From positions 1-32,899 of the forward strand of contig NZ_VUMR01000014.1 in the NCBI RefSeq assembly GCF_009696075.1: 32,899 nt of DNA, given 5' to 3'. This DNA is from Holdemanella porci (GTDB lineage Bacteria > Bacillota_I > Bacilli_A > Erysipelotrichales > Erysipelotrichaceae). Each line of letters starts with the position of its first letter. Position 1 is the first letter of the stretch. A model generated the notes under the pieces. It ran no database searches, was not told the origin of the DNA, and worked only from the letters and a program-made list of their open reading frames with translations. Positions 6,864 to 32,899 of the stretch are shown piece after piece. A program made the translations under genes and the position numbers.

Positions 6864-7337
6864 CTTGTGTTTTTATATATATTAAGAAATTGATTTCAGA
6901 GAAGATGAATTTGAAAATTTAAAAATGACCGAATTATCTGGGTTTAGAACTTTATTGGCGTGACAAAACAGACTATTGGTAATAGCCTTGTTTAGTATGG
7001 AATTCTTATTGGTTATATCCTTCTTTTATACATTCGCATCATTTCATCAATACATCTTTTTCAGTATGCTCTGTCATTTCTTTTGTCCTTGAATGAATTA
7101 TATGTATAAGTATACTGTATTGTGGCTTTACATTTGCATTGAATTGGATCTTAGGTTAAAAGAATCTATTAAATGAGTGCGTATTTGAATTTATTGTGTT
7201 TGTTTTTAAGGACTTTAGTTTTAGGTTCATGAGAATAAAAGATTTTGTTTTTGAACAACATTTGCTTCATATCCTTTTCTTATGGACTTTTTGACAAATG
7301 TCATTTATCATCATAAATACAGTAGAGGTGTTAATAA
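6864..7337. other. 474-bp intergenic region, no supported gene
   Basis: No convincing coding region on either strand. A plus-strand open stretch near 6890-6960 starts without a start codon and could be a remnant, but I do not recognise it. A small palindrome CTATT-GGT-AATAG lies near 6970-6990. I looked for a RAT-like antiterminator site and did not find one here, unlike the region before the mannose PTS operon. A 12-bp palindrome at 7292-7303 is listed separately. Confidence 0.5.
7292..7303. promoter_or_regulatory. 12-bp palindrome, candidate operator of the glucose-type PTS gene
   Basis: TGACAAATGTCA is a perfect palindrome 35-46 bases before the PTS start codon. It overlaps a -35-like TTGACA (7291-7296). 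The matching -10 is poor (TAAATA at 7314, or CATAAA at 7312) and would give a very short leader, so the promoter is uncertain. The same palindrome recurs at 32577-32588. Confidence 0.45.
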
Positions 7338-9427
7338 ATGAAACAACATCATGTGTTTAGCTTTTTACAAAGGATGGGCAAATCCTTTATGTTACCTATT
7401 GCAGTGCTTCCTGTAGCAGGTCTTTTTTTGGGTGTAGGAACTTCTTTAACCAATGAAACAACGATAGCTGCATTCCATTTAGAATCGGTATTAGGGCAAG
7501 GAACCTTTTTATATAGTGTTTTAATTTTATTGAAACAAGTAGGCAAAGTTTTATTTGATAATCTACCCTTGATTTTTGCGGTTTCTATAGCTTTAGGAAT
7601 GTCTAAGCAAAGAAAAGAAGTCGCTGCTCTTGCAGCTATTATTGCCTTTTTTGTAATGCATGCCACAATCAATACGTTACTCTGCTTGGATGGTAGTATT
7701 GTCAATGGTGTAGTTTCAAATTATATTCTAGATAGATCTATTACTTCGGTATGTGGAATGTTATCGCTTGAAATGGGTGTGTTTGGAGGAATTGTCGTTG
7801 GACTTGGTGTTAGTTATTTGCATAATCGGTTTTATCAAATCCAATTGCCAAATGTGATTTCTTTTTATGAAGGAGAACGCTTTGTTCCGATTGTTTGTGC
7901 TGTTACATATGTATTTGTTGGTGTAATTATGTATTTTGTTTGGCCACCATTACAACATGGCGTTTATAATTTAGGCCGATTGATATCGGATTCTGGCTAT
8001 TTTGGTACTTTTATTTATGGAATTATTAAGCGTAGTTTAGTTCCTATTGGCTTGCATGACGTTTGGTACATGCCATTCTATCAGAGTGCTTTAGGTGGTG
8101 TACAAATGGTGAATGGTTCAATGGTATCTGGAGCGCAGAATATTTTCTTTGCGCAATTATCCGATCCAAGTGTGACTCATTTTAGTGTGAACGCAACTAA
8201 ATTTTTCTCGGGAGAATTTATATTTATGATTTTTGGCTTGCCAGGAGCAGCCTTAGCCATGTGTCAGTGCGCAAATCCAAAAGTTAAAAAAAGACGGCAA
8301 GTTTATTGCTATCGGCCGCTTTAACAAGTGCATTAACAGGAATTACAGAGCCGATTGAATTCTCTTTCTTGTTTGTGGCGCCATTATTATATGTTGCTCA
8401 TGTGTTATTAGCTGCCACATGTTTTGTCGTTCCACAAGCTTTACAGGTTGCGATTGGATTTACTTTTTCAGCTGGTTTGCTTGATTTTACATTGTTTGGA
8501 ATTTTGCAGGGAAATGCGAAGACAAATTGGATAACTGTGGTTTTGCTTGGCTTAGTATATTTCTTTGTGTATTATAGGGTATTTAAGTTTTTGATTGTAA
8601 AGTACGATTTAAAAACGCCTGGAAGAGACGAAAGCATTAAGGTGTTTGATAAGAAAAAGTATGATTTTAGTTTTGATAAATCGTTGATTGATCCTAGAAG
8701 TCAGATGATTGTTCAAGGCTTAGGTGGGCGAAGTAACTTTACGGATTTGGATTGTTGCGTCACAAGATTAAGAGCGACAATCAAAGATGATACTTTAATA
8801 AATGAAGGGTTGTTAAAAAAATCGGGTGCTGCAGCTATTATGTGTCAGCCAAATGCAATTCAAATTATTTATGGTCCTCAGGCTTCGAATATAAAGACAA
8901 AACTGGATGAGTATATGTTGAATGTGCCGGAAAGTTATGATTTTGAGGATAAAGAAGTTGTTTTAGAAACAAAAACACAGTTGGAACTAGAATGTTTAGT
9001 AAATGGGGAAGTAATGCCGATAGAGGATGCATCGGATTCTATGTTTGCGCATAAATTAATGGGCGATGGTATTGTGATTCGTCCGTGTGATGGTGTTGTT
9101 GTGGCGCCGTGTGATGGAGTTATTTCAATGCTTTATCCAACAAAGCATGCGATAGGTATTACAATTGATGATAATACACAGATCTTAATTCATTTTGGCA
9201 CGGATTCGGCGAGATTAAATGGCAAGGGTTTTGAATTGTTGGTAAAACCAAACCAGAAAGTTAATGCTGGAGATGTTTTGTGGAATGCAGATTTAAAGTA
9301 TATCAAAGACAATGCGTTAGATGAAAATATTATAATTGTATTTACGAAAATAAAAGATGGTGCAGAAATAGAAAAAAAATATGGAAAAATGCAATGTCAT
9401 GATATGATGTTAAGGGTAAATGGATAA
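7338..9427 (+). pseudogene. Glucose/maltose-family PTS EIICBA, frameshifted
   Basis: Sugar permease and phosphotransferase of the glucose superfamily, split by a -1 change. Frame 1 (7338-8324) encodes the first part of the EIIC membrane domain, including GLHDVWYMPFYQ and the MIFGLPGAALAM region. The rest of EIIC with GITEPIEF, then EIIB and EIIA, continues in another frame to 9427. Adding one base to the A7 run at 8286-8292 restores a single reading frame of about 696 codons. EIIB keeps its phospho-acceptor Cys (codon 8756-8758, CVTRLR), and EIIA keeps the active His (9191-9193, LIHFGTDS), so nothing else looks decayed. It overlaps the antiterminator gene by one base. It may be a pseudogene, a slippage-expressed gene or a sequencing error. 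Substrate within glucose/maltose/N-acetylglucosamine is unresolved. Confidence 0.8.
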
Positions 9428-28288: not shown

Positions 28289-29269
28289 ATGGAGAAGCCA
28301 AAATCGTTTGTGTATATCATTTTCTGTTTAACGATTTGTCTAGCTTTTGCGGTAGGAAGTAACTACTTAATCAATATGATTACACAAGCGAATATGATAT
28401 ACAATTCGAATGAGCCACGTAAGATTGGCGCAACATATATGACCTACAACAATACGTTCTATTCGGTGGTCAATGAGGAAATTTCAAAAGTAGTTAAAAA
28501 ACACGGAGATCAGCTGATTACTTTAGATCCAGCTATGAGTTTAAAGAAGCAGAAGGAACAAATCCAATACTTAATAGATCAACAAGTGGATGCCTTAGTG
28601 ATTACGCCAGTGGATTATGATGGATTAAAAGATTCTTTAAAGCTAGCCTATAAGAAACGTATTCCTGTGATTGTTGTGGATACGGAAGTTAAACATAATA
28701 AATATGTGACCTATAGTATTGTCAGTGATAATTATGATGCGGGCGTACAATGCGCTAAAGATATGATGAGTAAGTTGGATCATGCCAATATTGTCTTGCT
28801 TCAACATTCGACAACTCGTTCTGGTTATTTACGAATTAAGGGATTTGAGGATACGATTCAGTCCAACTCAAATTATAAAGTGGTTCAGAGAATGGAATGT
28901 AAAGGACAATTAGAGAAGGCCATGCCAAAAATGGAGTCTTTTATTGAGGAAGGAATCGAATTTGATGTAGTGATGTGTTTAAATGATCCAAGCGCTATGG
29001 GCGCTATGGCCGCACTTTCATCGAACAATATGTTGGAAGGCAAGTATGTGTATGGCATAGATGGAACGCCTGAGGCAAAAGAAATGGTGTCAGAAGGTAA
29101 AATGGCTGCTACTGTGGCACAATCGCCAAAGACGTTTGGAAAGAAGGCGGGCGAAGCTATTTATAAGATGTTTTCGCAAGAAAAAATCAAGAATAAAAAT
29201 GTAGTGAGTCCTGTGCAAATCATCACAAAAGACAATGTTCATGATTATTCTACGGAGGGCTGGCAATGA
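28289..29269 (+). CDS. RbsB-like sugar-binding protein, membrane-anchored
   Basis: 326-aa periplasmic-binding-protein fold of the ribose/xylose group (Peripla_BP_4). Residues 8-30 are a signal-anchor helix without a lipobox. The two-lobe domain follows with DQQVDALVITPVDYDG, IPVIVVDTEV, the hinge region IVSDNYDAGVQCAKDM, and GIDGTPEAKEMV. No ABC permease or ATPase is present nearby; instead the gene overlaps a histidine kinase by 4 bases (ATGA). That context favours a sensor, as for XylFII with LytS in clostridia, over a transport role. The sugar is unknown. Confidence 0.88.
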   Translation: MEKPKSFVYIIFCLTICLAFAVGSNYLINMITQANMIYNSNEPRKIGATYMTYNNTFYSVVNEEISKVVKKHGDQLITLDPAMSLKKQKEQIQYLIDQQVDALVITPVDYDGLKDSLKLAYKKRIPVIVVDTEVKHNKYVTYSIVSDNYDAGVQCAKDMMSKLDHANIVLLQHSTTRSGYLRIKGFEDTIQSNSNYKVVQRMECKGQLEKAMPKMESFIEEGIEFDVVMCLNDPSAMGAMAALSSNNMLEGKYVYGIDGTPEAKEMVSEGKMAATVAQSPKTFGKKAGEAIYKMFSQEKIKNKNVVSPVQIITKDNVHDYSTEGWQ

Positions 29270-30576
29270 TACAAGATATAAAAAAATACAATGTATGGAT
29301 TGTCTACGTCTGTATGTGGCTTTTTAGTTTTTTTACCGTTTGGTACATTGCTATTGTGATGTATTATACGTTGGTGCATGTGACACAAAGCGGCTATGCC
29401 TCAGATTTTATTAAGAATATTTCCACACTTTCTAATGTTCCCATTCGATCCTTCTATATAGCGGTATTTGGCTTTATTGGATTGTTTTGTTTCGTGAGCA
29501 TACGTAAAAAAATTCGATTCTTTAGTCGTCATCAAATCATTCCAATTTTAATTGAACTTGGATTGAGCCTATTGATCATGAAGAATATATCGTTTAGTGC
29601 AACGTGTATTTTATTTTTGATTATTGCGGATAGCTTACTCTATGTGGATAAACCAGTTGATCGTTCAATTTGCATCATACTCGTCTTTTTAGCTTACATG
29701 CTATCCAACTATGGATATTTGTCCAACTATATTCCTATGATTTCATTCCAGGAATATTTGTCGGTGTATAATTCAAAGACACATGGCTTTTTGCTGGGAA
29801 TTGAAGTGACTTTAAGCAATTTAAATATTGTGTTGTTTATAGCTTATATATTCTTATATTTACAGAAACAAATGGATGAAACGCAGAAATTTGCGGCTTT
29901 GAATGCCGAATTAAAACGTTTAAATAATCAATTAAAAGGTTATGCGAATTTGCGAGAAAAAATGGGTGAAACCAAAGAAAGAAACCGTCTTGCCCGTGAG
30001 ATTCATGATACATTAGGGCATACTTTAACGGGATTAAGTGTTGGTCTTGAAGCGTGTCGAGTGATGATTGATAAGGATGTCAATGTTACAAAAGCACAAT
30101 TGGGTATTTTAGAAGAGAGTGCAAAACGCGGTTTAACCGATGTCAGACGTTCGGTGGATAAGTTGAAGCCAGATGCATTAGAGCGGTATTCTTTAAAAGA
30201 AGCATTGGATATGATGATCATGGATTATCAGAGATTGACCGATGTGACCATTCTTTATTTGTGTCATTTGCCTTTGGTGAATTTGAATGCGGACGAAGAA
30301 GAAATTGTGTATCGTGTTGTTCAAGAAGGAATGACCAATTCAGTCAGACATGGGCATGCGACAAAAATTTATGTTTCGATTGCGCAGGCCGATAATAATT
30401 TGATTATAATTATAGAAGATAATGGTCAGGGTTGTAAGAATATCAAACCAGGATTTGGCATTCATCATTTGACAGAACGTATTGACTTACTTCAGGGAAG
30501 AATACGTTATTATGGGGATAAAGGCTTTGAATTGATTGTAGAAATACCAATGAGAAGAGGAGAAAACAATGGTTAA
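29266..30576 (+). CDS. NarL-type sensor histidine kinase
   Basis: 436-aa membrane kinase. The N-terminal ~205 residues form about six membrane helices with short outside loops and no obvious sensor domain. A coiled-coil segment (about 205-240) leads into HisKA_3 with phospho-acceptor His247 in REIHDTLGHTLTG. The HATPase domain has the N-box in EGMTNSVRHGHA, then DNGQGC and GFGIHHLTERI. With no ligand domain of its own, it probably reads the state of the binding protein encoded just upstream (4-base overlap). It overlaps the response regulator by 8 bases. Confidence 0.9.
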   Translation: MIQDIKKYNVWIVYVCMWLFSFFTVWYIAIVMYYTLVHVTQSGYASDFIKNISTLSNVPIRSFYIAVFGFIGLFCFVSIRKKIRFFSRHQIIPILIELGLSLLIMKNISFSATCILFLIIADSLLYVDKPVDRSICIILVFLAYMLSNYGYLSNYIPMISFQEYLSVYNSKTHGFLLGIEVTLSNLNIVLFIAYIFLYLQKQMDETQKFAALNAELKRLNNQLKGYANLREKMGETKERNRLAREIHDTLGHTLTGLSVGLEACRVMIDKDVNVTKAQLGILEESAKRGLTDVRRSVDKLKPDALERYSLKEALDMMIMDYQRLTDVTILYLCHLPLVNLNADEEEIVYRVVQEGMTNSVRHGHATKIYVSIAQADNNLIIIIEDNGQGCKNIKPGFGIHHLTERIDLLQGRIRYYGDKGFELIVEIPMRRGENNG

Positions 30577-31228
30577 AATCATGATTGCGGATGATCAGCA
30601 GCTCATTCGAGAAAGCTTAAAGATCATCTTAGATTCAGATCCGAATTTTGAAGTAGTAAAAGTAGTTGGCAGTGGACAAGAAGTATTGGATACAGTGGAA
30701 ACAGAAAGTATAGATATTATCTTGATGGATGTGCGTATGCCAAGTATGAGTGGCGTAGAGTGTACTCGTTTGGTAAAAAAGAAGTATCCAAATATAAAGG
30801 TCATAATATTAACGACTTTTGATGATGATGAGTATATTTATGATGCATTAAAATATGGAGCAAGTGGATATCTTTTGAAGGGATGTTCCTTAGAAGAGTT
30901 GAGTTCGGCTATTCATAATGTTCTAGCGGGAGGAGCCTGTTTCAACCCAAATGTGGCGGGTAAAGTGACACAGTTCTTTTCTCAGATGGCAAATTCGAAT
31001 GGGGAATTTAATTTTGGACATGGAGAAGATGAACATATCGATTTGAGTGATACAGAATGTAAGATCATTGCCCAAATTGGTCATGGTTATTCAAATAAGG
31101 AAATTGCACAAAAATTAGGGTTTAGTGAAGGAACGATTCGTAACTATTTAAGTGTGATTCTGGATAAACTAGATTTAAGAGATCGTACACAATTGGCTAT
31201 TTGGTATTTATCTAGGGGAAATAAATAA
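30569..31228 (+). CDS. NarL/LuxR-family response regulator
   Basis: 219-aa regulator. The receiver domain (about 1-120) has the phospho-acceptor Asp54 in LMDVRMPS, acidic residues ADDQQ at the start, and Lys in YLLKGCS. The LuxR-type helix-turn-helix (about 155-215) has LSDTECKIIAQIGHGYSNKEIAQKL-type features. It is the cognate partner of the upstream kinase. Its start overlaps the kinase stop by 8 bases and its stop overlaps the next start by one. Targets may include the promoters at 32.6-32.7 kb; this is inference. Confidence 0.92.
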   Translation: MVKIMIADDQQLIRESLKIILDSDPNFEVVKVVGSGQEVLDTVETESIDIILMDVRMPSMSGVECTRLVKKKYPNIKVIILTTFDDDEYIYDALKYGASGYLLKGCSLEELSSAIHNVLAGGACFNPNVAGKVTQFFSQMANSNGEFNFGHGEDEHIDLSDTECKIIAQIGHGYSNKEIAQKLGFSEGTIRNYLSVILDKLDLRDRTQLAIWYLSRGNK

Positions 31229-32382
31229 TGGTGAAAAAAAGATTAAGAACTTTTTTGATAGCCATATTGGTGTGTTGTTTGTTAGGGACATTTTATTATA
31301 CGCAAAAACCCGTTGTTTTAACGATTGGCGTATTTGCGGGTAGTAACTGGAATGTGCCAAGTCCAGATAGTGGTAAGATCATTGATAATGCAATCAAACG
31401 GTTTGAAAAAACACATCCGAATGTTCAAGTAAATTATGTCAGTGGTATCTTGAAAGATGACTATTCGGCTTGGCTTTCAAAGGAGGCTCTGGATGGAAAG
31501 CTTCCCGATGTTTTCATGGTGTTGAGTGATGATCTTTCGACGTATGCCAAAGTAGGCATGTTAGAATCACTAGATACATACATGCAGACGGATCCTGATT
31601 TTAATCAATCGCGATATTTTTCAACGACACTCAATGCAGGTAATATTTATGATCAGCAGTATGCACTCCCTTATGAGAGTTCACCCACATTGATGTTTGT
31701 GAATAAAACATTATTAGAAGAGAATGGAATTGAAATACCCAATGTCAATTGGACGTGGGATGATTTCTATGCGATTTGTGAAAAGTTGACTGTGGATACG
31801 GATGACAATGGAGAAATCGATCAGTTTGGGGAATATGGATACACTTGGGAGAATGCTCTAAGTTCGAATGGACAGGCGTTGTTTGATGAGAAAAGCATGA
31901 AGAGTACTTTGCAGAATGAGGATGTGTATTCGGCTATTGAATTTGTGCGAAAGTTAAATCTTTTAAATCGAGGTCAGAATGTTACGAGTGAAATGTTTGA
32001 CAAGGGCAAGGTTGCCTTTTGTCCAATGATGTTTAGTGAGTATAGAACGTATAAGCCATATCCTTGGAGTGTTAAGAAATATTCAAATTTTGAATGGGAA
32101 TGTCTTCCGATGCCGGCAGGTCCTAGTGGCTATAATGCTTCACAAATGGATAGCTTGTTATGTGGTATTAGTAAGATGTCTTCTAAGAAAAAGATGGCTT
32201 GGGAATTTTTAAAGTTGCTTTGTTACGACGAAACAACGCAGGAAAGTTTGTTTAAATATTCGCAGGGTGTATCGGTTTTAAAAAACGTGTCGACATCCAA
32301 AAATGTGACTAAGTATATTCAAGAGGATGCGCCATTGGATTCAAGTTATAATTTGGAATTTTTTGATGATATGATGGAATAA
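31228..32382 (+). CDS. Family 1 extracellular solute-binding protein, C-terminally truncated
   Basis: 384 aa as written. An N-terminal signal-anchor helix (about 7-27) has no clear lipobox. The SBP_bac_1 domain follows: GVFAGSNWNVPSPDSGKIID, DVFMVLSDDLSTY, LPYESSPTLMFVNKTLL, then WDDFYAICEKLT. Such proteins bind oligosaccharides for ABC importers, but none is present in the window. A TAA at 32380-32382 stops it; the same frame continues for 49 more codons that match the usual C-terminal helices, so the gene originally ran to 32532 (434 aa). The fold may survive without the tail, or may not. It starts inside the response regulator stop, making four overlapping genes. Confidence 0.85.
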   Translation: MVKKRLRTFLIAILVCCLLGTFYYTQKPVVLTIGVFAGSNWNVPSPDSGKIIDNAIKRFEKTHPNVQVNYVSGILKDDYSAWLSKEALDGKLPDVFMVLSDDLSTYAKVGMLESLDTYMQTDPDFNQSRYFSTTLNAGNIYDQQYALPYESSPTLMFVNKTLLEENGIEIPNVNWTWDDFYAICEKLTVDTDDNGEIDQFGEYGYTWENALSSNGQALFDEKSMKSTLQNEDVYSAIEFVRKLNLLNRGQNVTSEMFDKGKVAFCPMMFSEYRTYKPYPWSVKKYSNFEWECLPMPAGPSGYNASQMDSLLCGISKMSSKKKMAWEFLKLLCYDETTQESLFKYSQGVSVLKNVSTSKNVTKYIQEDAPLDSSYNLEFFDDMME

Positions 32383-32532
32383 GCAATTACGATAAAAAAA
32401 CTGGATGGCTATGATCAATTGTATTCGATGGCAGATAGTGAAATTCGAAGAGTCATTGGTACAAATGAGGATATTGAAAGTGCGATGGAAAATTTGAATG
32501 ATGAATTGAATATATTATTGGAGAAACAGTAG
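32383..32532 (+). pseudogene. Cut-off C-terminus of the solute-binding protein
   Basis: In-frame continuation after the TAA at 32380. It reads YDQLYSMADSEIRRVIG and then an amphipathic helix ending at a TAG (32530-32532), which is how family 1 binding proteins normally end. It has no start codon context of its own, and a terminator overlaps its stop, exactly as expected if this were the original gene end. Confidence 0.7.
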
Positions 32533-32576: not shown

Positions 32577-32588
32577 TGACATTTGTCA
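32577..32588. promoter_or_regulatory. 12-bp palindrome, second copy
   Basis: TGACATTTGTCA is the exact reverse complement of the palindrome at 7292-7303 and is flanked by AT-rich sequence like it. It lies about 25 bases upstream of the promoter at 32613. Shared regulator inferred. Confidence 0.45.
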
Positions 32589-32612
32589 TCTAAAAGTGGT
32601 GACATATGGAAA

Positions 32613-32640
32613 TTGAAAAGGTTTTCATACGGGTTATAAT
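32613..32640 (+). promoter_or_regulatory. Promoter with cre-like element
   Basis: TTGAAA (32613-32618), a 16-base spacer, TATAAT (32635-32640). TGAAAAGGTTTTCA (32614-32627) overlaps the -35 and matches cre at 13 of 14 positions, missing the central C. It is a near-perfect palindrome in its own right. Confidence 0.6.
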
Positions 32641-32769: not shown

Positions 32770-32808
32770 ATGAAAGGCTTAACTAGCAATTTGGTGACTT
32801 TGCTATAA
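32770..32808 (+). CDS. Possible 12-aa leader peptide or broken gene start
   Basis: An ATG with a very good GGAGG site (32756-32760) opens only 12 codons, MKGLTSNLVTLL, then TAA. In another frame after about 32797 a further open stretch runs to a TAG near 32877. It could be a short leader peptide or the start of a frameshifted gene; I do not recognise either reading. Beyond 32810 nothing else is supported. Confidence 0.3.
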   Translation: MKGLTSNLVTLL

Positions 32809-32899
32809 TTTTGCGTTTTATCACTTATGCGAATAACCATTCGTTCTTCAAATCCTTTAAACGAGTGATCTTATAGATATTTTTCAATCTAAGTAGTAC

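Follow-up and report, generated by a model that had tools for sequence, protein, structure and literature searches.

We are highly confident that four genes near the end of the analysed stretch of DNA from the gut bacterium Holdemanella porci encode a sensor of the LevQRST type, which would respond to fructose and/or mannose and activate an adjacent mannose-family PTS via a predicted operator, TGACAnnTGTCA. The stretch, called the window below, is 32,899 nucleotides long and represents a whole contig. The four-gene arrangement itself is already known as LevQRST (PMC3043104). The earlier note, which presented a module of binding protein, kinase, regulator and binding protein as novel, was therefore right to read it as a sensor, but its claim of novelty has to be corrected. 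Relative to the literature that we found, what is new is the operator, the breadth of the system across Firmicutes and a clade of Clostridia in which it is linked to an ABC importer.

Genes, domains and order

28289..29269, forward strand: levT-like gene for SBP1, a membrane-anchored sugar-binding protein of the RbsB fold, 326 aa (Peripla_BP_4, 6.9e-46)
29266..30576, forward strand: levS-like sensor kinase, 436 aa (Pfam HisKA_3 and HATPase_c)
30569..31228, forward strand: levR-like response regulator, 219 aa (Response_reg and GerE/LuxR HTH)
31228..32382, forward strand: levQ-like gene for SBP2, an anchored protein of the MalE fold, 384 aa (SBP_bac_1, 1.1e-30; SBP_bac_8)

All four open reading frames lie on the same strand, and neighbours overlap or abut throughout 28289-32382. 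Pfam and hydropathy agree with the earlier description of the products: the first is RbsB-like and anchored, the second a kinase lacking a ligand domain, the third a regulator of the LuxR type and the fourth a second, unrelated binding protein. SBP1 has a single N-terminal hydrophobic segment (residues 3-32, by hydropathy), and inspection of its sequence revealed no lipobox. The N-terminal half of the kinase contains about six hydrophobic segments, and neither hydropathy nor the alignments revealed an extracytoplasmic ligand domain in it; the nearest PDB entries to its catalytic half are DesK and VraS.

The best profile matches of SBP1 are RbsB-type proteins, and it retains the polar sugar contacts of that type (N, D, R, N, D and Q, residues whose roles are general knowledge), which are conserved across 20 relatives. 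Its profile also matched PDB entry 2x7x, deposited as a sensor protein, which we take to be the fructose-sensing hybrid kinase BT1754 of Bacteroides thetaiotaomicron. Binding proteins of the 5xsj type, presumably XylFII, match more weakly (95 bits). This weaker match, together with the RbsB-type best match, could be taken to mean that the quartet is a XylFII-LytS-like sensor of a pentose, xylose or ribose. In our opinion this is very unlikely: the regulator carries a GerE/LuxR HTH and is not of the AraC/YesN class, a contrast that the earlier note drew correctly, the target is a mannose-family PTS, and GH32 fructanases occur among the neighbours in relatives.

The order SBP1, kinase, regulator, SBP2 is present in all 31 loci from the same order (Erysipelotrichales) that carry a full-length kinase, and also in most of the best 80 of 409 named Firmicutes loci; given this repetition, the order is not a matter of chance. 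In class-level genome searches true homologues of the quartet appeared only within Erysipelotrichales, the other matches being kinase pairs without binding proteins, and a plasmid collection in which a Lactobacillus/Streptococcus homologue was sought yielded only unrelated kinases and ordinary ABC loci.

Correspondence with LevQRST

In Streptococcus mutans, a bacterium of tooth decay, LevQRST is a four-component system encoded in the order levT-levS-levR-levQ and followed by levDEFG; it switches on a sugar importer, and its LevQ and LevT are membrane-associated (PMC3043104). Our comparison concerns the published LevQ positions, gene order, make-up and localisation. LevQ residues C161, E170, C188, F292, C296 and C336 all map to SBP2 columns with an offset of -4, and in the SBP2 alignment the same residues occur there in 6/20, 14/20, 18/20, 20/20, 13/20 and 8/20 sequences, respectively. 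The SBP2 of the window has three of the four cysteines and F288, and deviates at columns 157 and 166, where relatives have C or E. The invariant F288 is the counterpart of LevQ F292, and the change F292S altered sugar specificity in S. mutans (PMC3043104). For the other binding protein, C149 of LevT probably matches the near-invariant C155 of SBP1. Based on these correspondences, we equate SBP1 with LevT and SBP2 with LevQ. The order T-S-R-Q followed by a mannose-family PTS is seen in Holdemanella biformis and in most relatives.

By homology with the S. mutans system, LevT (RbsB-like) and LevQ (MalE-like), anchored outside the cell, would inform LevS of sugar in the surroundings, which is most likely fructose and/or mannose. 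Through direct contact the sugar-loaded LevT and LevQ would switch LevS, a multi-pass kinase without a ligand domain, LevS would phosphorylate the LuxR-type LevR, and LevR would then bind TGACAnnTGTCA upstream of the adjacent PTS operon and activate the PTS.

Neighbouring transporter and fructanase genes

The earlier note stated that no transporter genes are attached to the four genes. Such an absence cannot be deduced from the window, because the window is the whole contig and ends at 32899, inside the end of an insertion sequence. In H. biformis DSM 3989, our comparison genome from the same genus (90% identity in the kinase), the quartet is directly followed by genes for EIIA, EIIB, EIIC and EIID of a mannose-family PTS and by a small ORF. 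The four-gene order, which the earlier note had suggested searching for, was found widely in other genomes. The PTS adjoins it, either downstream or upstream, in most Erysipelotrichales loci and in about half of the best 80 of 409 named Firmicutes loci, including those of Clostridium, Anaerostipes, Pectinatus, Butyricicoccus, Enterococcus and Thomasclavelia; a few relatives have the quartet with no PTS nearby.

In several relatives a GH32 fructanase gene lies within or next to the locus, with the operator upstream of it in some, as is expected for a fructose/fructan system. No GH32 gene was found in the window's genome or in H. biformis, and for this reason the inducer here may be the free sugar or another sugar.

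Predicted operator and promoter

32577..32588: predicted LevR operator TGACATTTGTCA, a palindrome before the PTS, from conservation
32600..32604, forward strand: additional TGACA half-site, also in H. biformis
32613..32640, forward strand: putative PTS operon promoter close behind the operator (TTGAAA - 16 bp - TATAAT), read from sequence

The promoter is identical in H. biformis. Across 31 loci (529,513 bp) the palindrome TGACAnnTGTCA occurs at 38 sites versus 0.86 expected. With at most one mismatch it is found upstream of EIIA in 39 of 39 named loci, which are related and do not represent 39 independent events, and by the same measure it precedes none of the other PTS genes in the named loci (EIIB 0/41, EIIC 0/41, EIID 0/40). 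We define the operator by this conservation alone, and we infer that the regulator binds to it.

A second site, TGACAAATGTCA, lies at 7292-7303 of the window, some 35 bp ahead of the start codon (ATG) of a gene for PTS EIIC (7338-8324), and is shared with H. biformis (L217). It is possibly a second target of the regulator; the window's genome contains five such sites, which is not above the control count. In two further loci (L088:14559-16042 and L090:14559-16056) a gene for a HAD-family phosphatase is divergent from the PTS, and a second copy of the operator lies on the phosphatase side.

Probable damage to the system in this genome

32380..32382, forward strand: in-frame stop TAA in the levQ-like gene; the frame continues to TAG 32530-32532
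32770..32775, forward strand: first bases of EIIA (levD-like) ahead of the insertion; the H. biformis alignment breaks here
32776..32899: insertion sequence end and contig end, 124 bases

The fourth gene had been described as ending at 32532, a position reached only by reading through the TAA. In H. biformis the frame is open through the position of this stop (434 aa versus 384 here), and the SBP2 proteins of relatives extend about 40-50 residues past the end of the window's protein. The 124-base insertion sequence end is matched at about 20 places in the genome (92-100%), for the most part at the ends of contigs, and one internal copy is adjoined by an IS1595-like transposase fragment (PF12762). 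Many assembly gaps fall at this element. The PTS resumes on another contig, C86, from within EIIB at 95% identity, whereas the assembly (133 contigs) contains neither EIIA nor the beginning of EIIB.

With the insertion sequence breaking into EIIA two codons after its start and LevQ shortened by 50 residues at its C-terminus, the pathway is probably defective here. S. mutans no longer signals through the system once LevQ is lost (PMC3043104). The combination of a truncated LevQ with an insertion in EIIA suggests that the system is decaying in the window's genome. Both the stop codon and the junction come from one fragmented assembly, and the alternative is that they are assembly or consensus errors in a system that is intact and functional, as the intact promoter and operator of the PTS might indicate. 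We consider this unlikely, given that the two lesions are independent and that insertion sequence ends join the sequence both at EIIA, in the window's contig, and at EIIB, in C86.

A variant linked to an ABC importer

In one well-supported clade of Clostridia (23 rows, support 99/96) an ABC importer takes the place of the PTS. Its genes encode a lipoprotein with Peripla_BP_4, an ABC ATPase and a BPD_transp_2 permease, and they lie mostly upstream of the quartet. Of 18 genes for the transport binding protein, 13 have operator-like sites ahead of them. ABC-coupled quartets are found at L156, L159, L188 and L202 and at other Clostridia loci. At an Anaerosacchariphilus locus (L174:3279-10314) the sole RbsB-like protein detected is a lipoprotein, and its gene lies with those for the ATPase and the permease, immediately ahead of the kinase gene; this protein may serve both the importer and the kinase.

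The existence of this clade, and the fact that the folds of SBP1 and SBP2 are both typical of ABC-importer binding proteins, could be used to argue that the two proteins are ordinary transport proteins which simply neighbour an unrelated two-component pair. In our opinion this is extremely improbable. Neither H. biformis nor the PTS-linked relatives have an ABC importer attached to the quartet, SBP1 is anchored and has no lipobox, and the ABC-linked loci usually possess a separate lipoprotein for transport while the sensor quartet is whole in nearly all of them. The arrangement that the earlier note had named as evidence against a joint module, each binding protein sitting with its own ABC transporter and the kinase pair standing alone, is not what these loci show.

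Returning to the LevQRST reading, it seems likely that LevQRST is a widespread sensor cassette of Firmicutes, which travels with TGACAnnTGTCA and can be plugged into another uptake machine. We found no description of an ABC-coupled LevQRST variant in the literature outside subscription papers.

Implications

The predicted operator offers a testable site for a sensor that has until now been studied in streptococci, and LevQRST-type systems turn out to be common in gut Firmicutes. The same sensor is found next to sugar importers of two unrelated classes. In the window's genome, the damaged copy would mark a lineage that is losing the system.

Comparison with known systems

The closest parallel is LevQRST of S. 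mutans. In both systems a kinase and a regulator are flanked by sugar-binding proteins, one on either side, in the order T-S-R-Q and then a mannose-family PTS; in both, the binding proteins are anchored and the kinase has little extracellular part, and the LevQ residue positions correspond. A GH32 fructanase beside the locus is a further likeness, seen here in relatives. As differences from S. mutans, no fructanase gene was found in the window's genome or in H. biformis, and in the window LevQ is truncated and EIIA disrupted.

In XylFII-LytS-YesN of clostridia, as predicted for the quartet, a binding protein presents the ligand to a kinase that has no ligand domain of its own; the differences are a regulator of the AraC/YesN class and the presence of only one binding protein. 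HptRSA of Staphylococcus aureus also combines an extracellular binding protein with a two-component pair, and controls a sugar-phosphate transporter, but it has a single binding protein, an AraC-type regulator and another ligand. Finally, the 2x7x sensor resembles SBP1 in that an RbsB-like domain serves sensing, whereas there the domain and the kinase form one fused polypeptide, unlike in the quartet.
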